Shown piece after piece: positions 11,466 to 47,463 of a DNA stretch of 47,498 nt; the first letter of the stretch is position 1; every line of letters starts with the position of its first letter. The DNA is from Chromatiaceae bacterium (lineage in GTDB: Bacteria > Pseudomonadota > Gammaproteobacteria > Chromatiales > Chromatiaceae), in NCBI GenBank assembly GCA_013426805.1, contig JACDZG010000052.1, positions 1 to 47,498 of the forward strand, given 5' to 3'. The notes under the pieces were generated by a model. The model did no database searches, was not told where the DNA came from, and saw only the letters and a list, made by a program, of their open reading frames with translations. The translations under genes were made by a program, and so were the position numbers.

Positions 11466-11569
11466 ATACTTAACAATCGTATTAATTACTTAAAACTTCA
11501 CTCTGGTCGGTCTATTCTCAGCGTCCGGTCGTCCGGCGAGCGTGTCATCGCGGGGCGTTTCGCGGCGGG
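11466..11569 (+). promoter_or_regulatory. AT-rich spacer between the two sensor genes
   Basis: The 11459-11520 stretch is conspicuously AT-rich (TGAATACTTAACAATCGTAT and onward) inside a roughly 68% GC neighbourhood. That suggests an independent promoter for the downstream sensor. No textbook -35/-10 pair is obvious. Confidence 0.35.
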
Positions 11570-14500: not shown

Positions 14501-15043
14501 CTGGCGGAACTCGCGCTGCTCCAGCGCGACGCCATGCTGGACACACTGCAGATTCTGACCGCCGGGTTCGCGAACCCGCCCGCGGACATCGACCGACTGA
14601 CCGCGGCGACACTCGCCCGCCTTGGCCGCCTCAACCAGGCGGACCACGCCTGGCTGCTGCGCCTCGCGCCGGCGACGGGCCGGCTCGAAACCGCGCAGGA
14701 ATGGACGCCTGAGGGCCGGCCACCCGAGCCGTGGCGGCATCCGTCTCTGTCGGCCCTGCTGGCGCGGCTGCGGGCTGGGGAGGCCGTGGTGATCCCGCGA
14801 GTCGCGGATCTGCCGGCGGACTGGTCGGGCGAACGCGAGCACTTCAACGCCCGAGGAATCCAGTCGGTGCTCCTGGTCCCGCTGGGGACCGGCGACACCC
14901 TGCACGGTGCGCTCGGCCTGGACTGCGTGCGCGACACCCGCGACTGGTCGGCAGCGGCGGTGAACCTGCTCCAGATCGTTGCCAATCTATTGATCAGCCG
15001 GGGCGTCCGCCTTGACGCATGCGTCCCCGGGGCGGACGAATGA
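11570..15043 (+). CDS. Membrane PAS/GAF sensor protein, paralogue of the upstream kinase without output domain
   Basis: A 1157-residue protein closely similar to the first half of the neighbouring kinase. It has a MASE-like membrane bundle (37-220), TM plus HAMP-like region (370-410), four PAS domains (about 474-597, 603-718, 731-841, 858-971) and a GAF domain (988-1141), then stops at LDACVPGADE. It lacks the kinase's first PAS and everything after the GAF: two PAS, second GAF, histidine kinase and receiver. No kinase, cyclase, EAL or methyl-accepting domain is present, and the sequence downstream does not continue the homology. Either ATG 11570 or GTG 11594 (preceded by GGAGAG) could be the start. 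It is probably a tandem duplication followed by truncation. It may act by hetero-dimerising with the kinase. Confidence 0.85.
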   Translation: MPLPPESPVTTDQTAAPARMDDPHPTSAPRRLHRYLLTAALALAAAAGNHFNLALPFGVDFLFGSIAVLLALACLGTGPGLVAAVAGGAYTWLLWGQPYALIIFTAEAAAVGWHQGWVRKRRHTPPPLAVSVTLYWLLLGIPLALLFHRFGLGMDWSTTLLITVKQALNGILNAALAGLILVAIALLTGQRSALPLARVLFGALLAGMLLPTVLVSAWDNRDLREILEAAQAERLRLFGELAAHQLMIPADGATDPTTIARDLCGIDATLPATAAPTAHLERGMISPPRLPPNGWLGDRPRPGQIIPTSAPGLELILPEGRYPSHLDRWRQARYRMEISNNTAPVLLDHALPPGWRLVVAISATPLIDQLQAWLARLLMLLLVLALLGVVLAFWLSRRLVTPLHRLTRYARALPPAIREDQPRPPPVPALLAETGELADAVADMADSLAASFRALREEHDARRQLNDALSQQEARFRFLFEAMAEGVICEGGDGVAAEANPAALRLLGLSLAQLQGREPIDPRWQAVREDGLPVPTAGHPALAALRSSQDQGETVMGILEPRSGALRWLLVHSRLQPGTPPADPPRLFATLADITRHKQIEHRLRTLIENAPHGIVETDPTSRQLRWCSGSMQRLFGYSAAELDALNLDDLHPADARDRVLSEFNRMVQGDLAPALDLPCRRRDGSVFYCKVSPILPRLGPEWAFILFFTDSTAEYQVRRALEQAHEALLKAQDLGRLGYWELDLATGQVTWSPEVFRIFELAPEHFGASYETVLAAIHPDDRAMVDRAYQDALANRTPYDVVHRLRMPDGRIKWLRERCESEFAPDGTPLRSRGTVQDISDHTAAQLALDAQDQRRHLADLIAGTRVGTWEWQLQTGVTVFNERWAEIIGYRLAELVPTTLQTWLELTHPDDIERCKSLLQKHFSSELETYECEVRMRHKDGHWVWILDQGRVVQRDGAGAPLLMSGTHQDINARKLAELALLQRDAMLDTLQILTAGFANPPADIDRLTAATLARLGRLNQADHAWLLRLAPATGRLETAQEWTPEGRPPEPWRHPSLSALLARLRAGEAVVIPRVADLPADWSGEREHFNARGIQSVLLVPLGTGDTLHGALGLDCVRDTRDWSAAAVNLLQIVANLLISRGVRLDACVPGADE

Positions 15044-33993: not shown

Positions 33994-34427
33994 CCGGTAT
34001 CCTAATTGTCGGTCATCACCCAAACCCGCCCCTAAACCAATAATCGGTCTGGATAGGCGGCATGCAGGCTAGATCAGCGACGATTGGACCGCAGCGCGAT
34101 GCTGAGCGGCTGCGTCAGGTCGATCTCGGACAGATCTTGAGTGGAATCCATGGTTGGCAAGGGTCTCCGGTTCGCAGGGCGGCGCGAATCAACTCGGGAA
34201 ACTGAGCATACGCTTAAGCTACCATAACCCGACCAGTCGAACGGGGGGCCTTGATCATCGTTCCGGCCGGCCGCGGACGGTCCGCACAGCGGACCCTACG
34301 GTAAGGCCGCGATCCGTAGGGTCCGCTGTGCGGACCGACGACCGTGCAGATCGCGCGGTGGCCGGGTTTATGATCAAGGCCGAACAGAGTTTCGGCTCGC
34401 GACCCACCGCCACCGAACGGAAAAACC
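33994..34427. other. 434-bp intergenic stretch with a long hairpin
   Basis: No gene is seen except a doubtful 25-codon frame on the minus strand (34074-34151). The right half contains the perfect 23-bp inverted repeat listed separately. The 34193-34260 segment is somewhat AT-richer and may carry the promoter of the BLUF gene. Confidence 0.6.
34279..34336. repeat. GGTCCGC-family hairpin, copy 1
   Basis: Perfect 23-bp arms (34279-34301 and 34314-34336; left arm begins GGTCCGCACAGCGGACCCTA) with a 12-base loop. Each arm itself contains the imperfect palindrome GGTCCGC/GCGGACC. Related pieces lie at 35364-35385, 35576-35592 and 47410-47463. It lies 92 bp upstream of the BLUF gene. Confidence 0.85.
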
Positions 34428-35315
34428 ATGATCCAGATTTCCTACATCAGTTCCGCCACGGAGCCCATGCACACGGACGAGTTGCTGCGGCTGCTGCAAT
34501 CCTGCCGCGAACACAACGCCGGCAACGGCGTGACCGGGATGCTGCTCTACGGCAACGCGACCTTCCTGCAAGTGCTGGAGGGCGACGAGCGGGTGATCGA
34601 TGACCTGATCGAGCGCATCCGCCAAGACCCGCGCCACACCGACTTGCGGATCCTCTACCGCAAGACCATCGAACGCCGCGAATACTCGGACTGGAGCATG
34701 GGATTCAAACGGGTCGCCGCCAAGGAGTTGCAGGGCGTCGAGGGACTGCGTGACTTTGGCGAAAAGGACTTCAACCCCGACTATCTCATGCAGCACGATG
34801 CCATCGTGCAGAGCCTCATGAATCACTTTCGCAAGGAGCGCTTCAAGACCATCGGTCAAAGTGAACTGGGAGTCGACGAAGAAGACCGCATGATCAATGT
34901 GCTGCACTTCATCATTCGCGGCGCGGTGCGGGTGCTGGCGATCTTGATGGTGGTGACCATCCTGTGGGGCGTGGCCGACGTGATCATGGTCCTCTACCAC
35001 GAGGTGTTGCTGCCGTCGGTCGAGGAATGGCGCACCCACGACATCGTCGTCACCTTCGGGACCTTCCTGGCGGTGTTGATCGCCATCGAAATCTTCATGA
35101 ACATCACACTTTATCTGCGCGATGATGTGGTACACGTCAAGCTGGTGATCGCCACCGCGCTGATGGCGATCGCCCGGAAGGTCATCGTCTTCGATTTCGC
35201 CAAGATCGAGCCGATGTATGTCCTGGCGACCGCGGCGGTCATCCTGGCCCTGGGGCTCATCTACTGGCTGATGGACAGCGAAGTCACCTGGGGGCACGCG
35301 GGGCGGCGGCGTTGA
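34428..35315 (+). CDS. BLUF photoreceptor fused to a PsiE-like membrane domain
   Basis: 295 residues. Residues 1-95 form a BLUF flavin-binding blue-light domain with the key residues in place: Y6 (ISYISSA), N30 (HNAGNGVTG), Q48 (FLQVLEG), W89 and M91 (DWSMGF). A linker (95-160) follows, then about four membrane helices (roughly 163-285) with the pattern of the phosphate-starvation-inducible PsiE family, especially DDVVHVKLVIATALMAIARKVIVFD. The ATG at 34428 begins directly with the BLUF first strand. Known BLUF partners are EAL, cyclase or short alpha-helical outputs, so a PsiE-type output is unusual. The C-terminal assignment is by pattern and less certain than the BLUF part. Confidence 0.85.
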   Translation: MIQISYISSATEPMHTDELLRLLQSCREHNAGNGVTGMLLYGNATFLQVLEGDERVIDDLIERIRQDPRHTDLRILYRKTIERREYSDWSMGFKRVAAKELQGVEGLRDFGEKDFNPDYLMQHDAIVQSLMNHFRKERFKTIGQSELGVDEEDRMINVLHFIIRGAVRVLAILMVVTILWGVADVIMVLYHEVLLPSVEEWRTHDIVVTFGTFLAVLIAIEIFMNITLYLRDDVVHVKLVIATALMAIARKVIVFDFAKIEPMYVLATAAVILALGLIYWLMDSEVTWGHAGRRR

Positions 35316-35639
35316 GGCGGCCTTGGACATCAACCCGGCCACCGCGCGATCTGCATGGTCGTTGGTCCGCGCAGCGGACCCTACGGAGCGCGGCCTTAGG
35401 TGATTTCCGGGAAACGATGTACCAACGTGTAGGGGCGACTTTAGTCGCCCCTAAGGCGATTTCCGTGAACAGGCATCCCAACTGCGCATGCGCAGAAAGC
35501 CTGTTGGGTTGTAGGGGCGAATGAATTCGCCCCTACACGACGGTAGATGCTTTCCCGGAAATCACCGTAACCTCGGGTCCGCTGTGCGGACCGTCCGCGG
35601 CTGCCCGAGTGAAGTAAACTGTCCCCAGAACTCGCTGCC
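35316..35639. other. Intergenic stretch filled by nested palindromes
   Basis: 324 bp between the BLUF gene and the first DGR target. Nearly all of 35364-35592 is self-complementary sequence (separate entry). No gene is seen. Confidence 0.7.
35364..35592. repeat. Composite nested palindrome array
   Basis: From outside inwards: GGTCCGC-family arms (35364-35380 and 35576-35592); perfect 16-bp arms GGTGATTTCCGGGAAA (35399-35414) and TTTCCCGGAAATCACC (35551-35566); two side-by-side hairpins TAGGGGCGACT/AGTCGCCCCTA (35430-35453) and GTAGGGGCGAAT/ATTCGCCCCTAC (35511-35536). Between those is a small cruciform with arms AACAGGC/GCCTGTT (35468-35474, 35499-35505) around the perfect palindrome CTGCGCATGCGCAG (35482-35495). 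The composition matches elements at 79-173 and 15044-15190, here apparently inserted into a GGTCCGC-family element. Confidence 0.85.
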
Positions 35640-36731
35640 GTGCATCGCAGCGGGGGGTTCAATGGACGCGGAGGACAATTGACTCAGGCCGGGCTGAAAA
35701 ACGCGGGCGGCGGTGGGGCGGCCGCTGGTCCGGGATCGGGTGCGCACCGTCGTCCGGCGGTCGGCCTGCTGGAGAGCCGCCGGCTGCTCCTGGGCGTCGG
35801 CGGCCTGCTTGGTCTGGCACTGGGGCTGGCGCTGGCCTGGTACTGGGAGCACCCCGCGTCGCTCGCGGCCTGGGCGCTGCTGCTGGCCGGGCTCGGTTGG
35901 GCGGGCGCCGACGTGCGCCCCCGCCAGATCGGCACCATCGGCCCGCCCACCGCGCCGGTCGCGCCGCATGGCCGGCGGGTCCGGGATGGGCCATTGGTCA
36001 TGGTCGAACTGGCCGGCGGGCCCTTTTTCATGGGCTCGCCGGACACCGACCCGATGGCCGATGATCGGGAGAAGCCGCGCCACCAGGTCCAGGTCAGCGC
36101 CTTGCGCATGGGCCTGACACCGGTCACCCGCGGCCAGTGGCGCGCGGTGATGGGGGATGACCGCGGCTCCGGCGGCGACGCGCACCCGGTGACCGAGGTG
36201 TCCTGGGACGACGCCCTGCACTTCTGCAACCGCCTGTCCACGCAGCAGGGCTATCGCCCCTGCTACCGGCAGACCGGGCGTGGGTCCCGGCGGCACTGGG
36301 TCTGCGATTGGCAGGCCGGCGGCTACCGGCTCCCCACGGAGGCGGAGTGGGAGTATGGGTGCCGGGCGGGGACCGGGACCCGCTGGTCCAGTGGAGACGA
36401 CCCCGAGTCATTGGGCGATGCCGCCTGGTTCAAGCAGAATTCCGGCGGCTCGGCCCATCCCGTTGCAGAGAAAGGGCCCAACCCCTGGGGTCTGCACGAC
36501 CTCCACGGCAACGTCTGGGAGTGGTGCTGGGACTGGTACGGCCCCTACCGACCCGACGATCCCATTGATCCCCGCGGTGCCGCGCAAGGCCAGTCTCGGG
36601 TTGTGCGCGGCGGCTCGTTCGTCTATTCGCCCGACGGCCTGCGCTCGGCGTTCCGGAACCTCGACCTTCCCGTGTTCCGGGCCGAGGACCTGGGGTTCCG
36701 TTGCGTGCGCGGTCCGGTCCGCCAGCCTTGA
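35640..36731 (+). CDS. DGR target protein 1: membrane-anchored FGE-sulfatase/C-type-lectin-fold protein
   Basis: About 363 residues (GTG 35640; a TTG at 35682 behind GAGGA is an alternative start). Two membrane helices (about 46-90) precede an FGE-sulfatase domain of C-type-lectin fold (about 118-363). Its blocks are MVELAGGPFFMGSP, TPVTRGQWRAVMG, YRLPTEAEWEYGCRAGTG, NPWGLHDLHGNVWEWCWDWY and VVRGGSF. The last 44 codons are variable repeat VR1. In DGRs this fold displays the diversified residues as a ligand-binding surface, so it should be read as a binding protein, not a formylglycine-generating enzyme. It is transcribed toward the reverse transcriptase (convergent). Confidence 0.9.
   Translation: MHRSGGFNGRGGQLTQAGLKNAGGGGAAAGPGSGAHRRPAVGLLESRRLLLGVGGLLGLALGLALAWYWEHPASLAAWALLLAGLGWAGADVRPRQIGTIGPPTAPVAPHGRRVRDGPLVMVELAGGPFFMGSPDTDPMADDREKPRHQVQVSALRMGLTPVTRGQWRAVMGDDRGSGGDAHPVTEVSWDDALHFCNRLSTQQGYRPCYRQTGRGSRRHWVCDWQAGGYRLPTEAEWEYGCRAGTGTRWSSGDDPESLGDAAWFKQNSGGSAHPVAEKGPNPWGLHDLHGNVWEWCWDWYGPYRPDDPIDPRGAAQGQSRVVRGGSFVYSPDGLRSAFRNLDLPVFRAEDLGFRCVRGPVRQP
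36597..36728 (+). repeat. DGR variable repeat VR1
   Basis: 132 bp, aligned without gaps to the template repeat (37944-38075, opposite strand). There are 16 mismatches, at template plus-strand positions 37947, 37981, 37985, 37990, 37991, 37996, 37997, 37999, 38004, 38005, 38011, 38020, 38021, 38035, 38036 and 38048. Every one is T on the plus strand, that is A in the sense template. It mostly replaces AAC codons (Asn to Tyr, Gly, Phe, Phe, Ala, Asp), plus His to Leu, Gln to Leu twice and Glu to Val. The GC-rich 3' part is almost unchanged, as expected for the initiation region of retrohoming. Confidence 0.97.
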
Positions 36732-36753
36732 CACAGTGACATAGTGTCTTTTT
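36730..36753 (+). terminator. Hairpin plus T-run just after VR1
   Basis: GACAC (36730-36734) and GTGTC (36744-36748) form a short stem followed by TTTTT, directly at the stop codon of target 1. It could terminate transcription. A hairpin just beyond the variable repeat also assists target recognition in studied DGRs. A similar TGACACA-TGACA, then TTTGTCTTTTT, follows VR2. Confidence 0.55.
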
Positions 36754-36832
36754 GTCTTGTCTTTTTCCCGGCAGTTTTTGGCGTCGGAAATGTCATTTTG
36801 TCACTCCGCCATCCCTGGCCCGGGTGCCGGCC

Positions 36833-37828
36833 TCAGACCTCGGGAAAACACAGGAGGCCCCGATAGGAACGGATGCTGCGGATCAGCGGCTCATCCCCCG
36901 CCGCCGCGGCGCGGCGCAGGCGCGCCGCCAGGCGGCGGCGCAGCTTGCGGCTCGGCGCGATCCCCGCGCGCGCGACCCGGTAGCCCAGAAAGACCCCCGG
37001 CGCCCGGTTGGGCGCAACCACGAGCCGCTTGGGATTGAGCCCCAGCCCCCGCCGCTCGCCGAGCCAGTCCGCGAGCGCGGCACGCGCCCGCTCCAGCGGC
37101 TCGGGCGCGTCGGCGAACAGCACGAAGTCGTCCATGTAGCGCAGGTAGCCGGGGACTTTCAGCACCCGTTTGACGAAATGGTCCATGGGGTCCAAATAAA
37201 AGGCCCCGCTCCACTGGCTGAACCAGGAGCCGAGCGGCAACCCCCGGCCCGGCGGCGGCGCCTTGGCCCCAAGCACTTGCCGCGCCAAGGGGTGCTGATA
37301 CACCGCGTCCCCGGAGGCGATGACGTGCTCGACCAGTCGGCACGTCCGCGGGTCGCGCAGTCGCCGGAACAGGTCATCGCGCAGCCGGGCATGATCGACA
37401 TTGAGGAAGTACCCGGCAATGTCCAGATGCAGCCGATAGGCGAAACGGCGCATCCAGGACAGGTATTGCAGCACCGCCCGATGGGGCCCGCGACCGCTGC
37501 CGGTGGCATAGTGATGTTCGATGAAGGCACGCTCGTAGGCCGGGCCGATCGCTGCCAGCAGGGCATGGTGGACCACCCGGTCGCGCACCGCCGGCGCGGC
37601 GATCAGCCGCGGCTTGGGGTCCTGGATGCGGTGCAGGCGCCAGGCCGCGGGGCGGTAGGCCCCGCCGCGCAGGTCACGCTGCAAGCGCAGCAGCGCGCGG
37701 TCCCAGTCCAGTTCGAAGGCCGCCACCGTCGCCCGGCCGCGCTTGCCCTGCCGCGTGCGCTGCCAGGCCGCCCACAGGGCCTGAAACTCGGTCAGGCGCG
37801 TGAAGCTGTCGGCGGGGACGGAACGCAC
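36833..37828 (-). CDS. DGR reverse transcriptase
   Basis: 331 residues from GTG 37828, with a strong ribosome binding site (GAGGAGG at 37834-37840). It makes mutagenised cDNA from the template RNA. RT motifs in order: PKPRLIAAPAVRDRVVHHAL; LDIAGYFLNVDH with the first catalytic Asp; the DGR/group-II-type GRGLPLGSWFSQWSGAFYL ending in SQ; YMDD at 231-234 in LRYMDDFVLFA; LGLNPKRLVV; and FLGYRV. The length and the absence of maturase or endonuclease domains fit DGR RTs (usually 300-400 residues). The template repeat lies 115 bp upstream on the same strand. It converges on target 1. Confidence 0.95.
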   Translation of the reverse strand: MRSVPADSFTRLTEFQALWAAWQRTRQGKRGRATVAAFELDWDRALLRLQRDLRGGAYRPAAWRLHRIQDPKPRLIAAPAVRDRVVHHALLAAIGPAYERAFIEHHYATGSGRGPHRAVLQYLSWMRRFAYRLHLDIAGYFLNVDHARLRDDLFRRLRDPRTCRLVEHVIASGDAVYQHPLARQVLGAKAPPPGRGLPLGSWFSQWSGAFYLDPMDHFVKRVLKVPGYLRYMDDFVLFADAPEPLERARAALADWLGERRGLGLNPKRLVVAPNRAPGVFLGYRVARAGIAPSRKLRRRLAARLRRAAAAGDEPLIRSIRSYRGLLCFPEV

Positions 37829-37943
37829 GGGTGCCTCCTCAAGCGGCGGGTGGCCCGCCCGGACGGTCGGCCAGGCCTACTGGAACGGGCGGGCCGGGGT
37901 GGGGGCATGGCCCCCAGCGGACGCTGCCTGGTGACTGTGCAGC

Positions 37944-38075
37944 AGGTTGGCGGACCGGACCGCGCACGCAACGGAACCCCTGGTTCTCGTTCCGGTTCTC
38001 GGGTTGGTCGTGGTTCCGGTTCGCCGAGCGCAGGTTGTCGGGCGAATTGACGAACGAGCCGCCGCGCACAACCCG
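37944..38075 (-). repeat. DGR template repeat (TR)
   Basis: A 132-bp non-coding template on the minus strand, between the Avd-like gene and the RT gene. It matches VR1 and VR2 without gaps. Where the VRs are diverse, the sense strand is rich in AAC codons (Asn-rich if translated). AAY codons are the typical DGR design because adenine mutagenesis of AAC reaches many residues without making stop codons. An open frame does run through it (37839-38093), but it has no homology beyond the repeat, so I treat the TR as RNA template only. Confidence 0.97.
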
Positions 38076-38102
38076 CCTCCATCGTTTTCGCATCCGCCAT
38101 GC

Positions 38103-38447
38103 TCATGATGCGCGGGCCAGGCTCTTCTGCCAACCCCCGAGCTGACGCCCGATGTCGTCGGTCAGGCGCAAGAGGAACTCGAGCTGCCGCTCGTCCAGCA
38201 AGTCGATCGCATGGGCCAGCCGCAGGCGCATGCGCAGCCGGATCAGGTCGCGGTCCGCCACGGCCAGTTGCTCCTCCCGTTCGATGCCCTTGAGGGCGAG
38301 TACCAGGGCGTCGAGCAGGTCCAGACTGGCCCGGGCGGCGGCCATGGCCACCACCTGGGGGCTGTCGCCCAGGTGGCGCTGGACCCAGACCGTCAGATCC
38401 CAGGCCGCGGTGAAGATCGGCGCCTGGCGCGCCCCGCCCGCGCTCAC
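38103..38447 (-). CDS. Avd-like DGR accessory protein
   Basis: 114 residues, Arg/Leu-rich and predicted all-helical (ALVLALKGIEREEQLAVADR, LIRLRMRLRLAHAIDLL, QLEFLLRLTDDIGRQLGGW). The size, helical-bundle pattern and place between target and template match Avd (accessory variability determinant). Avd forms a basic pentameric barrel of four-helix bundles that binds the RT and template RNA. The GTG start at 38447 overlaps the stop of the HTH gene (GTGA). The stop lies 28 bp from the template repeat. Assignment is by position and pattern, not close sequence identity. Confidence 0.85.
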   Translation of the reverse strand: MSAGGARQAPIFTAAWDLTVWVQRHLGDSPQVVAMAAARASLDLLDALVLALKGIEREEQLAVADRDLIRLRMRLRLAHAIDLLDERQLEFLLRLTDDIGRQLGGWQKSLARAS

Positions 38448-39004
38448 CGCGGGTCCCCGTGCTTGCGGTCCATGCGCCGCAGCAGCCCGGCCAGCGCGGG
38501 CATCAGCTCCCCCTCCAGTGCGACGAGCCAGGTCTCACCGCTGCCGTCCGGCGCCAGCAGCAACTCCACCGCGGCCAGGCTGGCCGCATCGCGGGCGGCG
38601 CGGTAGGCGGCCGACTTCTCGTCCCGGCCGAAGCGATGACAACCCTGGGCCAGATGCTCGAGCGCGGACTTGAGATGGGCAGCGGCGGGATGCCCCGCGC
38701 CCAGGGCGTCGCACACCCCGCGGTAAAGCGGCGTGCCGATCGCCACCGCCTTGAGGTCGCGGATGGAGTAGGCCCGGTTCGGGGCGCCCGGGGTCAGGGC
38801 CTCATCGATGGCGGCACGCAGTTGGCCGCGGCGCTGCTGTGCGCGCTCGGCCACGCCCGGCAGCGCCGTTTCCAGGTCGGCCGATTCCACCGCCCAGCGG
38901 CCCCCCACCTTCTGCGCCGGCAGCCGGCCCTCCTGGATCAGATAGCGCACCTGACGCAGTGTTTTGCCCAGTGCCGCCGCGGTCTGCTGAAGCGTGAGTT
39001 GCAT
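38444..39004 (-). CDS. HTH protein of the DGR operon
   Basis: 186 residues. The N-terminus (1-50) is an excisionase/MerR-like helix-turn-helix: LTLQQTAAALGKTLRQVRYL, then EGRLPAQKVGGRWAV and ESADLETAL. The remainder is helical and Ala/Leu-rich, with AYSIRDLKAVAIGTPLYRG and HRFGRDEKSAAYRAARDAAS, which I do not recognise. The gene overlaps the Avd-like gene by four bases, so it is translationally coupled. It could regulate the DGR, bind the template or target DNA, or assist retrohoming. No function is established here. Confidence 0.8.
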   Translation of the reverse strand: MQLTLQQTAAALGKTLRQVRYLIQEGRLPAQKVGGRWAVESADLETALPGVAERAQQRRGQLRAAIDEALTPGAPNRAYSIRDLKAVAIGTPLYRGVCDALGAGHPAAAHLKSALEHLAQGCHRFGRDEKSAAYRAARDAASLAAVELLLAPDGSGETWLVALEGELMPALAGLLRRMDRKHGDPR

Positions 39005-39125
39005 TGAAGCGCCGCGCGTGGCGGACCCTTGTTACAATTGACAAGCGAATGTCAGCATAAGTGACGCCAAATTGCAACAAACATTGAGAGGCAAACGAAC
39101 AACAAAAAGACAAAGTGTCAATGTG
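39005..39125 (-). promoter_or_regulatory. Probable promoter region of the DGR operon and 3' flank of VR2
   Basis: 121 bp, AT-richer than its surroundings, between target 2 and the HTH gene. An imperfect inverted repeat, CTTGTTACAATTGACAAG (39033-39050), could be an operator. The right part (39104-39125) reads on the minus strand as TGACACATTGACACTTTGTC followed by a T-run and resembles the 3' flank of VR1. No firm -35/-10 pair is called. Confidence 0.45.
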
Positions 39126-42100
39126 TCAAGGCTGGCGGACCGGACCGCGCACGCAACGGAACCCCTGGTACTCGTCCCGGCTCTCGGGTGGGTCGAGGTT
39201 CCGGCGCGCCGAGCGCAGGATGTCGGGCGAATTGACGAACGAGCCGCCGCGCACAACCCGTGTACCTGCATCGGCAGCGCCGGTCGGGTCGAGCGACGCG
39301 GCCGACTCGTAAGGTCCATACCAGTCCCGTACCCACTCCCAGAGGTTGCCGTGCATGTCGTGCAATCCGAAACGATTCGCGGCCTTGGACGCGACCGGAT
39401 GAGCGCTGTTCCCGGCGTTGCCGTTAAACCAGGCATAGCGGCCCAGCCACTCTTGATCAGGCCCGAATGACCAGGGGGCGCGGCTGCCGGCGCGGGCGGC
39501 GAACTCCCACTGGGCCTCGGTGGGCAGGTCGCCGCCGAGTGTTCGGCACAGGTCCGCGGCTTGCTGCCAGTCAATCGTGGCCGCTGGCAGGTCGTCTGCC
39601 GCACCGGGCGTCGGATCCAGCCCGACCCGGCGCACCTGACCGTTGGTCACCTCGGTCCAGGTGATCTCGAAGGCCGAGAGGCTCACCCGGTGGGCAGGCT
39701 GCTCGCTGTTGTACTTCCTCGCCAGTGCCTCCGGCGGGTCGGTCGGCGCGGTGCCCTGGGTGAAGGTGCCGGGGCAGAGTCGGACCCAGGTCAGGCCGGT
39801 GTCGGGGTCCGGGGTGGCAAGCGGGGCGAAGTGCAGCTTGACCGCCCCCTGACCGGCGAGCCGCCGCAGTTCGGGGACCCGCGTCAGGTCCAGTACGCCG
39901 GTGCGCTCGGGCACGGGTGGGCCGGTGCGCGGCTGACCAAGGTCCCGGAACAACCGGGCGGTCGCCCCATGGTCCGCCGCCACGATGGCCCAGGGGCCGG
40001 GCCAGTCCGCCGCCGCCGGTGCCGGATCGGCTGTGGACGGCAGCAGCCACACCAGGAGTTGGGTCTGGCGGTCCAGCAGCGGGTGGCGCTGGGGGAGCCG
40101 GGCCAGCGCGCTGCGCCACTCCGTCGCGACCAGCACCAGGTCGGCGCTGCCCGAATCCAGGAGTTGGATGGCGAGCCGCCGGGCGTCGGGGCGCTGCGGG
40201 TCCGCGGCGATGACCGCGAGCGAGCGGCTGGGCCAGGCCGGGTCGCAGGGTCGGACCGGCTCCGCCAGGACGCCGCCGATGAAGAGCAGCCCGCGGCTGC
40301 CCGGAGAGGGGACGACCGGGTTGTTGGCGGTCGGGGCGGCGCCGTCGGCGGACGGCGCCTCGCCCCAGCGCCAGGTGACGCGCACCGTCGCGCCCGGGGG
40401 GACACCGGTCAGGACCTCGGCCGACTTGCGGTGGCCGACCGCCAGGGTCCCGGCGTCGGTGCCGGTGCCGATCAACCGCAGGGTCTGGTCCTTGAGCGCC
40501 GGGTGGTCCAGCAGCGGCTCGGTGGCGACCAGCGCGATCCCCGGCGGATGCAGCGCGCGCAGGCCCGCGGTGACGAAAGCCGCCAGCGCCAGACCGGCGA
40601 GCGCACCCAGCGCGAGCGCCGGGCGGGTCGGCGGGGCAAAATGCAGCCGCCGCGCGAGTGGCCGGCCGCCCAGTCCCAGCCGGTAGAGTGCCTCCAGCAG
40701 GTCCGGGCGGTCCGCGTAGTCCTGCCAGCGCCAGGGGAGCCGGATCAGTTGGCCGTCCCGCCGGTCGGGGTCCGACTCGCCATCGGCGACTTCGGCAGCG
40801 ACCGGTGGCGCGGCCGGGTCCGCCGGGTGCGGGTCCGGCTGCTGCGCTGACTCAGACGCCTGGTCCCAGGTGCAAAGTTCCCCGAGGCGCTGCCGAATCT
40901 CGGTGCCGAGCCCCGACGCGGCCAGGTCGAGCAGGTCCTTGGCCGCCGCTTCCGGACCCAGGAACAGCCGCAGCAGGGCGAGTTCCAGGTCCCAGCGGCG
41001 CTCGGGCTCGGTGTCCGCCCAGGGCAGCAGGGGATTCTGTTGGTCGCGCTGGGCCTTCCCGGCCGCCGCGAAGCGCTCGATCCACCAGTGGATCGCCTGC
41101 TTCGCCGGTCCGTCGGGCAGCAGCCCGGTCCCCGGGTGGGTGCCGGCGCGCGGCAGCCGGCCGGTCAGCGGGTGAGTGCCCGCGCGCAGCAGGGCGTTGA
41201 CCAGCCGGCGCCGCGCCGGCCCGTGCCAGACCAGTGCGTCGCCCTCCGCGTGGCGGCGCAGGTCGCCGATCCGCCAGGGGTCGAGCGCCAGACCCAACCG
41301 GGTGCGCAGGCGCTGGGCGGCCGGCGCGTCGCAGCCGTCCGGGACCAGGGCACAGGCCCCGGCCCAGAGCACCAGGTCGCCATGCAGGGGCCGCGGACCG
41401 GCGCCGGGTGCCGCGGCGGGCGCGGTCTCCGGACCGGCGCCGAGCCAGGCCGTCAGGTCACGGGGGGCGAGCGGCCGCAGCCGCCAGGGCGCCAGGGCGC
41501 GGGCCAGCGCGCCCCCGCCGGAGAAGTCGACCACCGCGACCCGCGGCCAGCGGGCGAGGTTGCGCAATTGGCGCGCCACCGGTGCCCGCCGGGCGGGCGA
41601 CGCCAGGGCGCGCAGCAACCCGGCGCCGTCGGTGAGGAGAGCGACCAACACCTGGTCACGGCGGCCATCCTCGGCTGCCGGCGTGAAGGGGTCGCCCGCG
41701 CCCCACCAGAGCCGGTCCGGGGTGCCGGCGAAGCCGCCGATCCGCACGCCGAGTCCGCCGCGGCGCAAGCTGTCGCCGAGCTCCGCGACGAGCGCGGCGA
41801 GCTCCGGGGATTGACAGTGAGTGTCGCGCAGCAACCAGACCTCGCGCGGGTACTTGGCGTGCCGGTAGCAGACCCGGGCCAGTCCCCCGGCGCGGGCGGT
41901 GAGGGCGGCGGTGGCGCGCTCATCGACCCGGCGGGTGCGGTCGGCGGCGGTGAAACGGGCGATGCGCCAGGTCATGGCGCGCCGCTCGCGGGCCGGGGTC
42001 AGCAGGGTGTCGCTGCCGCGGGCGGCGGGCAGCGGCTGCCAGCCGGGACCGCCGCGCACCGGCGGGAGCGGGTCGGGCTCCAGCCGACCGCGACGCCGGT

Positions 42101-42764
42101 GCCTCCTGGCCAAGAGCCCGGCCGCCAGGGCGCACAGCAGGCCCAGACCCGCGAGACCCGCGGGCCCCAGGCGCGGCGGGAGCGCGACATCGGCTGGTGT
42201 GACCAGGGCCTGCCAGAAGCGGATAGCGGGCGCGGGCTCGCTGGGGAGATCATCGTCCTGGTCGCCCCCGTCAGCGGGGCTGACCACTTGGTCGACGGGC
42301 GGGGTGACCTGGATGCCGGACACCGACCCGCCCGGCCACGCCTGCCAGAGTGCCGGCAAGGCGACAAGGACAGCGGCCACCGCGGCGAGCCGCGGAGATC
42401 GGCGTCGGCCGACGGGTGCGGGGTCGGCCCCGGAGGTCTGTTCGGGGGGCTGAGCGGCGGAGGCGCCCGTGACGGTGCGCGATGGCACGTCCGCGCGGAC
42501 GCCGGCGCCCCCGATGGCCGGTCCCGGGGTCCGCAGCCAGTCCGCGGCGGGGAGGTCGGGACACCAGAGGTCGAACAGCCAGTCGAAGGTCGCCTGGTGC
42601 TCCGGCCGTTTGACCAGCAGCAGGCCCAGGAAGCGCCGCAGTCCGTCCCGGTCCAGGCGCGGCGCACACGCCAGCGCGTGCCGGGTGCGCACCACCTCCG
42701 CCGGGCCCACCGGCACCCCTTCGGCGCGCAGTGCGGTGAACAGCTCGTCGAGACTACCCCGCAT
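39126..42764 (-). CDS. DGR target protein 2: membrane vWA-like/FGE-fold sensor
   Basis: 1212 residues. The N-terminal 70 residues (LFTALRAEGVPVGPAEVVR, RDGLRRFLGLLLVKRPEHQ) resemble the leader of MoxR-associated vWA/CoxE-like proteins. TM helices lie near 125-141 and 201-219. The middle (about 255-470: EVWLLRDTHC, LAALVAELGDSLRRGGLG, VLVALLTDGAGLL) resembles a vWA domain without a clear metal-site DxSxS. TM3 is near 714-738. A C-terminal FGE-sulfatase/C-type-lectin-fold domain follows (about 978-1212: LPTEAQWEFAARAGSR, GLHDMHGNLWEWVRDWYG). The last 44 codons are variable repeat VR2. It starts 9 bp after the MoxR gene stop, so the two form an operon. Inferred role: a diversified binding protein coupled to an AAA+ switch. 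The vWA call is tentative. Confidence 0.85.
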   Translation of the reverse strand: MRGSLDELFTALRAEGVPVGPAEVVRTRHALACAPRLDRDGLRRFLGLLLVKRPEHQATFDWLFDLWCPDLPAADWLRTPGPAIGGAGVRADVPSRTVTGASAAQPPEQTSGADPAPVGRRRSPRLAAVAAVLVALPALWQAWPGGSVSGIQVTPPVDQVVSPADGGDQDDDLPSEPAPAIRFWQALVTPADVALPPRLGPAGLAGLGLLCALAAGLLARRHRRRGRLEPDPLPPVRGGPGWQPLPAARGSDTLLTPARERRAMTWRIARFTAADRTRRVDERATAALTARAGGLARVCYRHAKYPREVWLLRDTHCQSPELAALVAELGDSLRRGGLGVRIGGFAGTPDRLWWGAGDPFTPAAEDGRRDQVLVALLTDGAGLLRALASPARRAPVARQLRNLARWPRVAVVDFSGGGALARALAPWRLRPLAPRDLTAWLGAGPETAPAAAPGAGPRPLHGDLVLWAGACALVPDGCDAPAAQRLRTRLGLALDPWRIGDLRRHAEGDALVWHGPARRRLVNALLRAGTHPLTGRLPRAGTHPGTGLLPDGPAKQAIHWWIERFAAAGKAQRDQQNPLLPWADTEPERRWDLELALLRLFLGPEAAAKDLLDLAASGLGTEIRQRLGELCTWDQASESAQQPDPHPADPAAPPVAAEVADGESDPDRRDGQLIRLPWRWQDYADRPDLLEALYRLGLGGRPLARRLHFAPPTRPALALGALAGLALAAFVTAGLRALHPPGIALVATEPLLDHPALKDQTLRLIGTGTDAGTLAVGHRKSAEVLTGVPPGATVRVTWRWGEAPSADGAAPTANNPVVPSPGSRGLLFIGGVLAEPVRPCDPAWPSRSLAVIAADPQRPDARRLAIQLLDSGSADLVLVATEWRSALARLPQRHPLLDRQTQLLVWLLPSTADPAPAAADWPGPWAIVAADHGATARLFRDLGQPRTGPPVPERTGVLDLTRVPELRRLAGQGAVKLHFAPLATPDPDTGLTWVRLCPGTFTQGTAPTDPPEALARKYNSEQPAHRVSLSAFEITWTEVTNGQVRRVGLDPTPGAADDLPAATIDWQQAADLCRTLGGDLPTEAQWEFAARAGSRAPWSFGPDQEWLGRYAWFNGNAGNSAHPVASKAANRFGLHDMHGNLWEWVRDWYGPYESAASLDPTGAADAGTRVVRGGSFVNSPDILRSARRNLDPPESRDEYQGFRCVRGPVRQP
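39129..39260 (-). repeat. DGR variable repeat VR2
   Basis: 132 bp, gap-free against the template repeat and on the same strand as it. There are nine mismatches, at template positions 37947, 37985, 37991, 37996, 38005, 38011, 38020, 38021 and 38035, all template adenines in sense orientation. All nine sites are also changed in VR1. Protein changes are Asn to Ile, Arg, Ser, Asp and Tyr, His to Leu and Gln to Pro; one change is silent. Confidence 0.97.
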
Positions 42765-42773
42765 CGGGGCCGC

Positions 42774-43841
42774 TCAGCGCAGGTTGTCCAGGTCGGACTG
42801 GTCCTTGAGCAGGACCCCGAGCCCCGGCAGGTCCGCCAAGCCGTAGGCCCGCAGCCGCGACGCCTGTTCACCCCGGGCGCTCAAGATGCACAGCCAGGCC
42901 AGCAGCTCGGCCGTGGACGGCTTTTTCTCCTCGGCCAGCTCGCGCAACCGCCAGAAACACGCCAGGGCCGCGTCCAGGGTCTCGGGGTCCAGGTTCGGAA
43001 AGTCGTCGGCATGGGCGCGCACCGCGTCCTTCACCAGGGCGTCGGTGATCTCGATGCGGTGGAAGATGCAGCGGCGCAGGAAGGCGTCGGGCAGGCGGCG
43101 CTCGTCGTTGCTGGTAACCACCAGGATCGGCGGCCGACCGGAGGTGGGCCGGAGATCAACGCCGAGGAAGGGGTGGCGGAAGCAGTGCTGGTCCAACTCG
43201 TGGAGCAGGTCGTTGGGGAAGTCCCGCGGCGCCTTGTCGATCTCGTCGATCAGGAGGACGGCGTCGGTCTTCTCCAGATAGGCCAGCCACAGGGCGCCCA
43301 TGGTGAGGAACCGGCTGCGCTCACGCGCGCTCGCGGCGAGCAGGGGGTCGCGCTCCGCGGGGCTGCCGACAGCGACCGGGGCAGGGTCTGGTGTTGCGGT
43401 GCCGGCGCCTGGCTTGATCTCAGTCGGGGTCTCAATCGCGGTCTCAGCCCCGGCCTCGGCCGCGGTGCGGCGACTCTGGGCCCAATGCAAATAGCCCACG
43501 GCGTCGAAGTCGTAGCGCAGATCCTCGGCACTGGAGTTGGATTTGACCTGGAACTTGAAGACCGGGATCTTGAAATACCAGGCGAGGAACTCGGCCACCT
43601 GGGTCTTGCCGGTGCCGGGCTCCCCGGTGAGCAGCAGCGGGGCGCCCAGGTTCAGGGCCAGGTTGATGGCCATCCGCAGGTGCGACGAGGGGCGGTAATG
43701 CCTGGCCGCGGCCCGATGATCGTGCAGCGAGGGCGGCAGCCGACGCCGGCCGAGCTGCGCGCGGGCGGCGAGCCGCTGCGCCTCGTCCGCCTCGGGGTCG
43801 GGGACTGTGACCAGCTCGAACACGGGATCGTTTGGGGACAT
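42774..43841 (-). CDS. MoxR-family AAA+ ATPase
   Basis: 355 residues. Walker A GEPGTGKT at 73-80, Walker B LLIDEID with D199/E200, sensor-1 VVTSNDERRLPDAF, and an arginine-finger region FLRRCIFHRIEI. A Pro/Ala-rich insert of about 50 residues (125-175) lies between Walker A and B. MoxR ATPases remodel or activate a partner, usually a vWA protein encoded next door, which fits the 9-bp distance to target 2. ATG 43841 is chosen over a start eight codons upstream, where the sequence is not family-like. Confidence 0.9.
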   Translation of the reverse strand: MSPNDPVFELVTVPDPEADEAQRLAARAQLGRRRLPPSLHDHRAAARHYRPSSHLRMAINLALNLGAPLLLTGEPGTGKTQVAEFLAWYFKIPVFKFQVKSNSSAEDLRYDFDAVGYLHWAQSRRTAAEAGAETAIETPTEIKPGAGTATPDPAPVAVGSPAERDPLLAASARERSRFLTMGALWLAYLEKTDAVLLIDEIDKAPRDFPNDLLHELDQHCFRHPFLGVDLRPTSGRPPILVVTSNDERRLPDAFLRRCIFHRIEITDALVKDAVRAHADDFPNLDPETLDAALACFWRLRELAEEKKPSTAELLAWLCILSARGEQASRLRAYGLADLPGLGVLLKDQSDLDNLR

Positions 43842-43924
43842 GGGCTGATTCCGGTGGGTGTGCATCGGCGAAACCCGTGACGGCCTTGGAGAGATTGGGC
43901 AAGTATTCGTTATAGATCGGGCCG

Positions 43925-44000
43925 AGGAACGAAGCCCAACCTGCGCGCGAACGCAAGGCGCTGAAATGTTGGGGTTCGCTCCTCACCCCAACCTACCGTG
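43925..44000. repeat. GTTGGGGT repeat, copy 1
   Basis: GAGGAACGAAGCCCAAC at the left is followed after about 28 bp by GTTGGGGTTCGCTCCTCA and CCCCAACCTACCG. The right half is itself a palindrome (GTTGGGGT / ACCCCAAC). A diverged second copy lies at 44711-44775. This is a widespread type of dispersed repeat in environmental bacteria. Confidence 0.75.
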
Positions 44001-44060
44001 CTCTCACGGAGACGCGGACGAGAAGAGAAAGAAGATTCTCTCACAAAGACACGGAGACAC
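43996..44060 (+). repeat. CACAAAGA repeat module 1 (+)
   Basis: About 65 bp running CTCACGGAGAC...GAGAAGAGAAAGAAGATTCT, then CTCACAAAGACACGGAGACA. First of four copies that alternate in orientation. Confidence 0.75.
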
Positions 44061-44220
44061 AAAGGAGGAACGATGTGGGGTTGTATAGTGAACATCGTGA
44101 GACTCATTAAAGGCGCGATAAAATCGTTGTTTGAGAGCACTCTTTTGCTATCGGACAACCCTTTCAAGCAAGTTCCGTCCCTGTTCACCGACGATACTCA
44201 CGATATCAATCCTGACTTTC

Positions 44221-44286
44221 TTGCTTTGTGTCTCTGTGTCTTTGTGAGATGATTTCTTTTCTTTCTTCCGTGTTTCCGTGAGAGGC
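44221..44286 (-). repeat. CACAAAGA repeat module 2 (-)
   Basis: Inverted copy: GCTTTGTGTCTCTGTGTCTT through TTCTTCCGTGTTTCCGTGAG. With module 1 it brackets about 160 bp of unassigned sequence. Confidence 0.75.
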
Positions 44287-44291
44287 TCTGC

Positions 44292-44441
44292 TCACCCGAG
44301 TTGTCCGTTGATGGTTCTGGTGATGCCGTTTTTCATCAGGGCTTCGCCGAAATTCAGGAGATAGCCGAGCTTCATCCCGGTCAGGCGATGGATCTTAACG
44401 GCACAATCCACAACGATCACACCGATTTCATTCTCATTCAT
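44292..44441 (-). pseudogene. Miniaturised GxxExxY-family gene (in-frame internal deletion)
   Basis: A 49-codon frame, ATG 44441 to TGA 44292. Residues 1-19 (MNENEIGVIVVDCAVKIHR) are the family N-terminus. Residues 20-49 (LTGMKLGYLLNFGEALMKNG and onward) are the family C-terminus. The middle 70 or so residues, including the GxxExxY motif and the nuclease-like core, are absent, but the frame is kept. GxxExxY proteins are usually about 120-130 residues with a PD-(D/E)XK-like fold. A nuclease function is impossible for this version. It may be a relic or an expressed micro-protein. Confidence 0.7.
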
Positions 44442-44454
44442 TATCAGCTATCTC

Positions 44455-44530
44455 ACGGAGATGTGCTGGAAAATAGAAGAAGATTCTCTCACAAAGACAC
44501 AAAGACACAAAGACACAAAGACAGGAAGAA
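44455..44530 (+). repeat. CACAAAGA repeat module 3 (+) with 8-bp tandem array
   Basis: CTCACGGAGATGTGCTGGA through GAAGAAGATTCTCT, then four exact CACAAAGA units (44490-44521). The poly-purine tail to about 44560 continues with AAGAAAAG-type sequence. Confidence 0.8.
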
Positions 44531-44579
44531 GAAAAGAAAGAAAAGCAAAGTAAAGAAAAAAAGCCATGACAGTCGTCTC

Positions 44580-44650
44580 TTCTTTGTGCCTTTGTGTCTT
44601 TGTGAGAGGACTTCTTCTCTTTCTTCCGTGTCTCCGCGAGAAGATCTCAG
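44580..44650 (-). repeat. CACAAAGA repeat module 4 (-)
   Basis: Inverted copy: CTTTGTGCCTTTGTGTCTTT through TTCTTCCGTGTCTCCGCGAG. It pairs with module 3. Confidence 0.75.
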
Positions 44651-44710
44651 GGCTCATGGTAGCCGCTGGTGACGGATGCGGCTGGCGATGGCCTCAGGGC
44701 CGTAGGGGTG

Positions 44711-44775
44711 ACGAAGGAAGCCCAACGATCTGCGGCCGGGGATGTTGGGGTGCGTTCCTCACGGCAACCTACGGG
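44711..44775. repeat. GTTGGGGT repeat, copy 2
   Basis: GACGAAGGAAGCCCAAC followed by GTTGGGGTGCGTTCCTCA and CGGCAACCTACGG. It is diverged from the copy at 43925-44000 but in the same order. Confidence 0.7.
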
Positions 44776-44827
44776 ATTGCGTTGATTTCGCGCCCGGGCG
44801 GAATGCTTGCCCAATCTCGCAGCGATG

Positions 44828-47246
44828 TCACGCACGCGGGCGCCGCGCCGCGCGCAGTTCATCCGCCATCCGGCCCCAGCCGATCTTCTTGGCCCGTTTG
44901 ATCTGGGCGACGGCCTCGGCGAAGGGCATCTGGTCGCGCCCGCTCAACATCAGCGCCGGGTAGTCCGGTTTCAGGTGCTCCCAGCACCAGCAGACCGACG
45001 AGCCGAAATAGTCGCGCAGATGGTCCTCGTCGACCGCCGCCAGGGGGGGGCATGGGGCGGAATCGGAAGCTCGGCCGGGGGCCGCGCTGGTCCTCCAGCG
45101 CGCGGGCGCGGGTGCGCAGCGACTGCTGGACCTGAGCGACCTCGGCGCTCTCCAGGACCAGCAGGGCGATGATCCGCAACCCCGCGGGACAGCCGATGGC
45201 GAGCCGCTCCCAGGTCCATTCCAGCACCGCCCCGGCGAGCGATTGCAGCGCCTCGGTGGATGGCTCATCGTCGCTCTCCACGCGCCAGCACAGGAGCGGG
45301 ACCTGCACCTCGCCGCCGAAGTCCGGACCGCTGTGGCGCAGGGCCGCGAACAGGTCGGCCCGCGGAGCGAGCCGAAAGGCGCGGCGGAAGGCCAGTTCTA
45401 CCGCGGCGGGCGTCGCGGCCTCGGCAGACAGGTGGACCGGGCCGCGCGGGTAGACGAAGACCCCCGCGAAATCGCTTCCCACCAGATAGACCTCGGCCTG
45501 GCGCGCGAAATCGTGCACCCGATTGCCGCGCGTCCCGATCGCCAGGCGGAACTGGACCCGCAGCGGGGTTTCCCCGGTGACCAGGTCCCGGCAAACGCCC
45601 AGCAGGTGCTCGCTCTGGTCGCGGCGGTCGAGCAGGTATTCCACCAGGTCGTCGTCGAGCGCGGCGTTGGTGCTGGTCTGCCAGTCCTGATAGGCGCTCC
45701 AGCAGCCGCCGTGGCGGGCGCCGGCGTGATGGAAGGCGATGACCGGGTCGCTGCGGTGCACCAGCAGGTGCTCCAGCCAACGGAAGCCGACCTCCGCCGC
45801 CTGGCCCGAATCCTGGCTCGGGGTGCAGTGGATGACCGCGGCGCGGGCACGCCCGGGGCGATCATCGACCAGGGCGCCGGCCGCGGCCATGGCGTGACAG
45901 CCCTGATCGTCTACCAGATTGAGGAAGCAGACCTCCGGTGCCCGCACACCGAAGGCCTGGGCCAGCTCGGCGATCGACAGCCCCACCGGATGGCCGTCGC
46001 GGTCCGGCAGGTCCAGGAGATAGGTGCCGGTCGCCCGGTCCCAGCGGCCCGCGCCGAAATAGTAGAGCAGACGCGGCGGGCGTTCCTGCAGCTCGAAGCG
46101 GAGCTGATCGAGGTGGGTCGCCTCGAACAGGGTGCTGCGCTTGGGCCAGAGGGTCCGGAACAGTCCGCGCAGGTCATCGAGGTGTCCCGCCCGATAGCGG
46201 TCGTGGGAGAACACCGCCAGCACCGGGCCGGGCATCGCGAGGCTGTGATTGGGGAAGCGCGGACGCTGATCGGGGACGGGTTGGGGGCTGCACTCCACCG
46301 TCCACCCAAACTCCCGCAACGGGGTACCCTGATAGGCGAGCTGGTGCCAGGGCAGTTTGGTCAGGAGGTCACCGCCGCCGAGGAGGCGCACGCGCACCGG
46401 ATGCCGGGGCGGCACCAGCAGTCCCCGGTTCGGCGCAGGGATCGGCTCGCCCGCCGCCGCGGCCAGGAGTTGAGTCCATCGCTTGGGGTCGTCGCCGATC
46501 AGCAGGCTGGTCAGGGCGTCGCCATCAATGGGCACACAAGGTTCCCACAGGTCCAATGCGTGCTCGCCGTGGGTCTCCGGCAGCTCGATCTCGGTGGGTC
46601 TGGCCCCGTCCGTCAGGTAATAGCGCCGGCGCAAACGGCCCCGCGCCTTCTGAAACTCCAGGACGAGCTCGGGGCGTCGGTCGGACGGGGCCACCGGCGG
46701 GGTGGCGCTCGGCCGGCGCGTGGGCCGGTCGGGGGCACCGGCCGCCGGTTGCCGCTGCGCAAGCCAACCCCCGACCTGATCGGCCAGCCGCGCGATCAGG
46801 GTGCCGCGCTGCGCGTCCGTCAGCCCGTCGAGCGGTTGGTCGGGGCCGTTGACGCCTTGCCGTGAGTCCAGATCGAAGGTCTCGGTCTTGCCGCCGCGGG
46901 GGAAGCTGAATCTGAGCGCCCGGGCAGGCACCCGGGAGACGAAGACCGGGATCAAGCCCAGCGTTCCGGCTTGCGCCCGACTCAGGAGCACCGGCAGCTC
47001 GCGCTCACAGATATACGGTGAATCGAGGAAGTTCGGGGTGATCAGCAGGATGGCGCAGGCACAGCGGTCGAGCGCCGCCTGGATCTCGCGGTCCCAGTCC
47101 TGGGTGACCTCGGTATCCTCGTCGATCCAGACCTCGACGCTCGCGCGATCTTTGAGTGCGATGCGCAACTGGCGCTGGACCTCCTCTACATAGTGCCCCG
47201 GGTCCTTATGGGCATAGGAGATGAAAACGCGGTCGGCGGGCTCCAT
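44828..47246 (-). CDS. TIR-domain protein with degenerate CHAT-like region, frame broken at a C8 tract
   Basis: TIR domain at the N-terminus (RVFISYAHKDPGHYVEEVQR, VWIDEDTEVTQDWDREIQAA, ITPNFLDSPYICERELP). The middle (about 230-480) resembles a CHAT-type caspase-like fold: LPWHQLAYQGTPLREFGWTV, LLYYFGAGRWDR and VCFLNLVDDQG. The usual GHG histidine and the catalytic cysteine seem replaced, so it is probably inactive. A helical C-terminal region follows. As written, the frame shifts at a run of eight G on the plus strand (45043-45050) and stops at 44859. With seven, the frame continues into EDHLRDYFGSS, CWCWEHLKPDYPALMLSGRD and KKIGWGRMADEL, giving 805 residues. ATG 47246 is used, but in-frame GTG codons in the upstream 12-bp repeat are possible starts. 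Probable effector of the adjacent MoxR/DGR system. Confidence 0.8.
45043..45050 (-). other. C8 homopolymer at the frameshift
   Basis: Eight G on the plus strand (eight C in the coding strand). Removing one base joins the two coding frames exactly, and the resulting length is a multiple of three to the stop at 44828. It is either a sequencing/assembly slip or a phase-variable tract. Confidence 0.8.
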
Positions 47247-47282
47247 GGCGGTCTCCACGGCGGTCTCCACGGCGGTCTCCTC
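47247..47282 (-). repeat. 12-bp tandem repeat at the TIR gene start
   Basis: Two exact GGCGGTCTCCAC units plus a third ending CTC. In the coding strand they give GTGGAGACCGCC, which encodes VETA and carries both a possible GTG start and a GGAGA ribosome-binding-like string. Unit number could change the start-site context. Confidence 0.8.
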
Positions 47283-47394: not shown

Positions 47395-47409
47395 GGTGCA
47401 GCCGCGGAC

Positions 47410-47463
47410 GGTCCGCACAGCGGACCCTACGGTAACACCGTGGCCTGTAGGGTCCGCTGTGGT
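47410..47463. repeat. GGTCCGC-family hairpin, copy near the right end
   Basis: The left arm GGTCCGCACAGCGGACCCTA (47410-47429) is nearly identical to that at 34279. The right arm GTAGGGTCCGCTGT (47447-47460) matches for 14 bases and then diverges (GGTGCG for GCGGAC). It marks the far side of the DGR/TIR island. Confidence 0.8.

Follow-up and report, generated by a model that had tools for sequence, protein, structure and literature searches.

A complete diversity-generating retroelement with two lectin-fold targets in a Chromatiaceae genome, and related pairs of predicted sensors found without its cassette

Analysis of a 47,498-bp stretch of DNA from a Chromatiaceae bacterium (GenBank assembly GCA_013426805.1, contig JACDZG010000052.1; hereafter the window, which is one whole contig of a 7.6-Mb genome) leaves very little doubt that it carries a complete diversity-generating retroelement (DGR). 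This is in agreement with a first-pass annotation of the sequence, which had claimed a reverse transcriptase (RT), an Avd-like gene, a template repeat (TR) and two variable repeats (VR1 and VR2), with C-type-lectin-fold proteins as the targets. The VRs lie at the ends of two genes encoding FGE/C-type-lectin-fold proteins. The anatomy of the element and its adenine specificity were observed in the window itself, and past rewriting of VR1 emerged from its comparison with the orthologous VR1 in a sister species. The added interest of the locus lies in this rewriting and in related pairs of predicted sensors that have no mutator.

The TR could be aligned by script, without gaps over 132 bp, with VR1 on the opposite strand and with VR2 on the same strand, and the coordinates and alignments given in the first-pass annotation were reproduced exactly (Table 1). 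Beyond these 132 bp, the identity of the TR with either VR drops to background, giving the repeats sharp limits. All 25 mismatches are found at T of the plus strand, which corresponds to A of the sense (minus-strand) template, and none of the 108 non-A sites differs between the TR and either VR. Given the 24 A among the 132 positions of the TR, the bias is highly significant for both VR1 (Fisher p 4.7e-15) and VR2 (p 5.2e-8), and a uniform model yields (24/132)^25 = 3.1e-19, which bears out the claim that a chance origin is negligible. The changes from TR to VR comprise 13 A>T, 9 A>G and 3 A>C. Fifteen TR codons contain A, none of which can mutate to a stop codon, and 1.75e13 proteins are possible per VR, assuming that all A vary. 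As the two targets are convergent, one of the two VRs must run against replication; an effect of orientation on DGR editing has been reported (PMC12875486; this paper, PMC10907252 and PMC7159879 are cited here from excerpts).

The statement that all 25 mismatches are changes at adenines is exact as a count, but two of them are better read as a marker of the initiation of mutagenic homing (IMH) than as mutations. At sense site 129 (window 37947), the TR has A, whereas VR1, VR2 and the VR1 of the sister species have G, the 3' end reading CAACCT in the TR and CAGCCT in both VRs. A related cassette, L071 (genome G006), has a TR that also ends in CAACCT and VRs that have CGGCCT and CAGCCT, with G at this site in both. 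The difference between IMH* and IMH of the Bordetella phage BPP-1 sits at the corresponding place (PMC12875486), and the A/G difference at site 129 is probably of this kind, fixed rather than mutational. Read as a fixed marker, it discounts two of the 25 mismatches and leaves 23 mutations; the adenine bias is retained without it (15/15, p 3.7e-14, and 8/8, p 3.4e-7). With regard to a possible orientation effect, VR1 and VR2 show 15 and 8 changes at A without this site, whereas the two VRs of L071 show 18 and 19. The likeness between VR1 and VR2 extends 27 bases past the repeat, starting at the stop codon, and these bases are absent at the TR. Similar flanks were found at some other VRs (L070, L071 and L121), and they represent candidate recognition elements on the target side.

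Table 1. Features of the DGR locus and its neighbours (positions in the window)
Feature	Position	Strand	Description
Short target	35640-36731	+	363 aa; FGE/C-type-lectin fold, Pfam FGE-sulfatase 7.8e-53; VR1 at its end
VR1	36597-36728	+	16 mismatches with TR, each at a template A; end of short target
VR1 3' flank	36729-36755	+	Resembles VR2 flank, no counterpart at TR; candidate recognition element on the target side
DGR RT	36833-37828	-	331 aa; LGSWFSQ, YMDD (RYMDDF)
TR	37944-38075	-	132 bp, 24 A; CAACCT (IMH*) ends its 3' side
Avd	38103-38447	-	114 aa; Pfam bAvd 7e-10, NCBIfam Avd 1.6e-11, PHROG Avd 3.8e-9
HTH_17 protein	38444-39004	-	186 aa; Pfam HTH_17 8.9e-8; between Avd and long target
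VR2 3' flank	39102-39128	-	Resembles VR1 flank; candidate target-side element
Long target	39126-42764	-	1212 aa; middle part unassigned; C-terminal FGE domain with VR2, Pfam FGE-sulfatase 2.1e-41
VR2	39129-39260	-	9 mismatches with TR, each at a template A; end of long target
MoxR/MadB-like AAA ATPase	42774-43865	-	363 aa; directly upstream of long target
TIR-domain protein	44859-47270	-	803 aa; Pfam TIR_2 2.5e-16

The RT possesses the YMDD and SQ motifs that had been attributed to it. Among solved relatives, 8ub7 scores best (E 1.6e-29), followed by a group II RT sequence (E 1.4e-14); 8ub7, whose title reads just Reverse transcriptase, is presumably the RT of BPP-1. In an RT tree of 33 rows, which held no retron rows and from which four RTs shorter than 300 aa had been dropped, five group II RTs (QGxxxSP) were split from the 28 others with a support of 100/100. 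The window RT falls outside these group II rows and clusters with the RTs of L071 and of L069 (genome G005), again with a support of 100/100; a grouping with group II RTs is what would have spoken against its assignment as a DGR RT. The RT of L071 (8143-9117, G006:C480), its nearest full-length relative, has LGGYLSH in place of the SQ motif, and 37 of the 38 mismatches between the TR of L071 and its two VRs are at A despite this altered motif. The Avd protein was matched in three libraries, with a Pfam score of 39.8, just below the curated cut-off of 40, and an NCBIfam score of 44.5, below the cut-off of 80. The HTH_17 protein appears to be part of the cassette, since its L071 homologue (48%) holds the same place there. 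Its PHROG matches (1840, 7506 and 66) are to phage excisionases and a directionality factor. A phage origin of the locus was rejected, the RT sharing less than 60% identity with all 84 phage records matched, as was a plasmid origin, given that 35600-44900 has no near match in plasmids.

The assignment of a C-type-lectin fold to the two targets is supported by the FGE-sulfatase domains found in both and by a profile of the tip region of the long targets, for which 2y3c, a variable protein of Treponema, is the best PDB relative (E 1.2e-28). A hydropathy scan indicates one clear hydrophobic segment in the short target (residues 49-67) and three in the long target (126-144, 201-219 and 717-735), and both proteins are therefore predicted to be membrane-anchored. 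Judging from the charges on either side of these segments, residues 220-716 of the long target appear to be cytoplasmic and its lectin domain outside. Residues 10-68 of the long target match NCBIfam MadC (E 9.3e-4), a match that was seen in none of the seven relatives scanned, some of which are incomplete. With regard to a vWA domain, Pfam gave no match in the long target at E up to 10. An hhalign comparison placed its LLRDT on the DxSxS motif of CoxE with E 0.09 and a probability of 0.6%, shuffled controls giving E 0.41-0.97 (ten listed of 30). Residues 250-470, modelled by AF2 from the single sequence, reached a pLDDT of 50.7 and a pTM of 0.49, and a fold search with this model returned no vWA among the 50 matches listed of 1156 (E up to 10), none of which had E below 0.001; HGPRT leads them with a TM of 0.33.

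The sister-species locus L070, which lies in a genome of the same genus (G006), is orthologous to the window, the short-target and TIR stretches being 94-95% identical at the nucleotide level. Its VR1 differs from that of the window at 16 sites, comprising 11 of the 24 A sites and 5 of the 108 others (p 1.9e-6); outside VR1, the short-target gene differs at 40 of 950 sites (4.2%). VR1 was thus rewritten around or after the split of the two species. In L070, the position corresponding to window 36982 adjoins that corresponding to 44742; this locus lacks the TR, Avd, HTH gene, long target and ATPase, together with the greater part of the RT, of which two pieces are left. A short repeat, present in the window at 43966-43996 and 44742-44772, has a copy at this junction. 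L070 lies on a draft-assembly contig of 5.5 kb, and a misassembly is therefore possible, but a profile of the long-target extension found no match in G006. The possibility that the L071 cassette of the same genome serves the orphan VR1 of L070 was rejected, as the two show 47 mismatches, of which 27 are at non-A sites.

Loss or decay of the cassette at the related loci L070 and L121 raises the question of whether the VRs of the window are themselves old products of a locus that no longer diversifies. We consider this unlikely, since the RT, Avd and TR are intact, the RT motifs are kept, and old copies drift: the pairs without RT described below differ at 8-29 of 108 non-A sites, whereas the TR and VRs of the window do not differ at any. 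Several observations nevertheless count against the DGR reading. Of the 21 differences between the L070 VR1 and the window TR, 16 are at A, and the remaining five, at non-A sites, correspond to about the background rate. The stem-loops found after the IMH have short, weak stems and are no better than those of shuffled sequences; an inverted repeat at this place in BPP-1 is helpful, not strictly required (PMC12875486). The spacer RNA of the cassette is likewise no more stable than shuffles. A scan of the window revealed no Rfam family and no tRNA.

A profile search of 210 genomes from the order found the long-target extension in eight of them. Seven more loci, L061, L068, L073, L075, L108, L110 and L121, hold pieces of a long target together with a convergent short target, and one of them, L061, lies in the host's own genome (C56). 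An AAA ATPase is found beside the long target at five of the seven (L061, L068, L073, L108 and L110); at L075 and L121, where no ATPase was seen, the long target runs into the contig end. At several loci, such as L068 and L075, the long target is broken or in pieces. No Avd, HTH gene or intact RT was detected by tblastn between the sensors of the seven loci, and the sole RT match is a piece at L121 corresponding to residues 1-91. A genome with two such modules, G216, gave weak RT matches of 28-33% identity.

The tips of six of these seven pairs were compared; L073 was left out because the search pattern missed its short target. The six pairs differ at 10-18 of the 24 A sites of the window TR and at 8-29 of the 108 others (p 2e-11 to 7e-3). 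This enrichment is by itself weak evidence, because unrelated loci differ at these sites as well (mean 0.67 over 84 cross-locus pairs). Outside the A sites, the identity within five of the six pairs is 0.86-0.93, whereas cross-locus pairs average 0.76 (0.63-0.89); at third positions, the corresponding values are 0.86-1.00 and 0.69 (0.41-0.97). The non-A sites of the tip agree to 73-93% in all six pairs, compared with 50-79% in the preceding 390 nt. These results fit a past homogenisation of each pair by one shared TR, with the DGR probably lost later and the tips frozen.

Alternatively, the pattern of the RT-less pairs could have arisen without any DGR, through gene conversion between their two FGE genes combined with diversifying selection. 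The FGE tip is conserved in general, and the codons with A sites are those that differ most even between unrelated loci. In addition, the ranges within and between loci overlap through L061 and L068, whose similar long targets share 0.89 identity outside the A sites, the same as within-locus pairs, and the L075 pair is an exception without excess (0.70 outside the A sites and 0.54 at third positions). Set against the persistence of RT pieces at L070 and L121 and the high third-position identity of five of the six pairs, this explanation appears rather doubtful. A TR acting in trans was rejected, since searches of seven genomes with the VRs of L061, L108 and L068 found no third copy beyond the pair itself, the other matches being weaker and cross-locus; this result is not final, as most of the assemblies are drafts. 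What the comparison adds is a loss of the cassette that would recur at one sensor module across species.

By analogy with studied DGRs, the minus-strand Avd-TR-RT RNA would serve as template, and the RT and Avd would copy the TR with random bases placed opposite adenines. In both targets, the resulting complementary DNA would then take the place of the 3'-terminal VR, with the IMH (CAGCCT then TGAC..) directing it there and the CAACCT end (IMH*) marking the TR as template. This would yield two C-type-lectin-fold proteins that are anchored in the membrane and have randomised tips. The long target could then relay a binding signal via the MoxR-like ATPase to the TIR protein, a probable effector, leading to loss of nicotinamide adenine dinucleotide and cell death. 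The ATPase is termed MoxR-like on the grounds of Pfam AAA and AAA_5 matches above cut-off and of an NCBIfam MadB match below it (2.3e-17, 63 bits, cut-off 475); a term search of the open-access literature found no matching paper on MadB/MadC. We give sensing and effector relay, which draw on the neighbouring genes and on Doré et al. (2024), about even chances. Counting against the relay are its basis in gene neighbourhood only, the distance of roughly 1 kb between the TIR and ATPase genes, and the fact that the stretches fetched for L061, L068, L075 and L121 showed no TIR.

Alternatively, the diversified lectins could serve kin recognition or attachment rather than phage sensing, the TIR and AAA genes being functionally unlinked neighbours. 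Hydrophobic segments are present in both targets, and kin recognition was raised by Doré et al. themselves (PMC10907252). This alternative is possible, if less than probable, given that the AAA gene and the long target are found together at L061, L068, L073, L108 and L110, that TIR matches occur beside the AAA gene at L108 and L110 (with a weak one at L073), and that, as far as the excerpts go, published conflict systems fuse or link FGE-DGR proteins to MoxR, vWA and TIR parts. Returning to the relay, we tentatively propose a broader reading, which as a whole we hold for distinctly less than an even bet. Instead of the DGR, the conserved unit would be a transmembrane death module with two sensors, ordered as (TIR)-MoxR-like ATPase-long sensor-convergent short sensor. 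A degenerate, cytoplasmic vWA-like part of the long sensor would dock on the ATPase, with the variable lectin outside. The HTH-Avd-TR-RT cassette would be a removable mutator that is gained and lost, and its loss would freeze the last useful tips as inherited, innate-like receptors. The relatives form a natural series, from an intact mutator, through a mutator deleted in the sister species, to RT-less pairs with the pattern kept. It makes testable whether selection keeps DGR-made sensor variants after loss of the mutator; if they are kept, targeted hypermutation becomes inherited recognition.

At L071, the same cassette sits between two different targets, with metallophosphatase and NACHT-like parts, and cassette and sensor bodies therefore look exchangeable; domain shuffling in DGR targets has been described by Doré et al. 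(2024) (PMC10907252). The host genome (G000) holds at least six DGR-type RT frames, located in the window and on C198, C259, C347, C152 and C139 (loci L062, L064, L065, L066 and L067, respectively). Adenine-biased repeat pairs were found at five of the six, and none on C259, an 8.9-kb contig. A scan for such pairs was positive at 17 of 35 fetched loci and at 3 of 16 more, some of them without RT. At L118 (G007:C1:5503000-5516000), repeat pairs of 71 and 64 bp, with 6/7 and 7/8 mismatches at A, lie beside a YCDD RT.

With regard to the rest of the window, the region between the AAA and TIR genes (43960-44780) contains short-repeat arrays (CTTTGTGTC-like) and a 31-nt repeat present twice. Palindromic repeats at 34264-35607 and 47398-47461 frame the region, with perfect arms of 24 nt and a 61-nt copy at 90% lying 13 kb off; they look like repetitive extragenic palindromes (REP) or miniature inverted-repeat transposable elements (MITE). 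A 295-aa protein encoded at 34428-35315 fuses a BLUF blue-light sensor to a PsiE domain. Two very large PAS/GAF proteins of 2120 and 1157 aa are encoded at 5103-15043, the former being a hybrid histidine kinase with a receiver domain.

In comparison with known systems, the window DGR resembles that of BPP-1 in its avd-TR-RT order, its YMDD motif, its adenine-specific change and its distinction of IMH from IMH* (PMC12875486). Unlike the latter, it is chromosomal, has two targets in opposite orientation and an HTH gene in the cassette, shows no clear stem-loop after the IMH, and has FGE-type targets rather than a tail protein. The MoxR-vWA-VMAP ternary systems of Kaur et al. (2020) likewise place a MoxR-like ATPase beside an FGE-fused protein and a DGR (PMC7159879), whereas the long target of the window has no confidently recognised vWA domain. 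No family named VMAP was present among the matches of the neighbouring genes, in libraries that may not hold VMAP. The same paper, which names Lamprocystis as a VMAP host, was the only one found in the open-access literature with both Lamprocystis and diversity-generating, and one paper was found there on orphan or RT-less cases.

The closest likeness, as far as the excerpt of Doré et al. (2024) goes, is to clade 5A DGRs (PMC10907252), in which the locus is placed by gene architecture rather than by RT phylogeny. In this clade, for example in DGR 8 of Thiohalocapsa PB-PSB1, a MoxR-like ATPase is immediately followed, as in the window, by a target whose long extension has no predicted domains. 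A second, short target comprising only the C-type lectin domain, an HTH gene and a TIR gene are found nearby, and the hosts are aggregate-forming purple sulfur bacteria with several DGRs per genome. This likeness is one of gene content; in the window, the targets are convergent, with the HTH-Avd-TR-RT cassette between them. Degenerate DGR loci were described by Doré et al. within one genome and its strains, whereas the apparent cassette loss described here concerns orthologous modules across species. This kind of DGR has thus already been described, and the window locus adds to it a clean, complete two-target example of clade 5A architecture, in a genome with at least five further DGR-type RTs.

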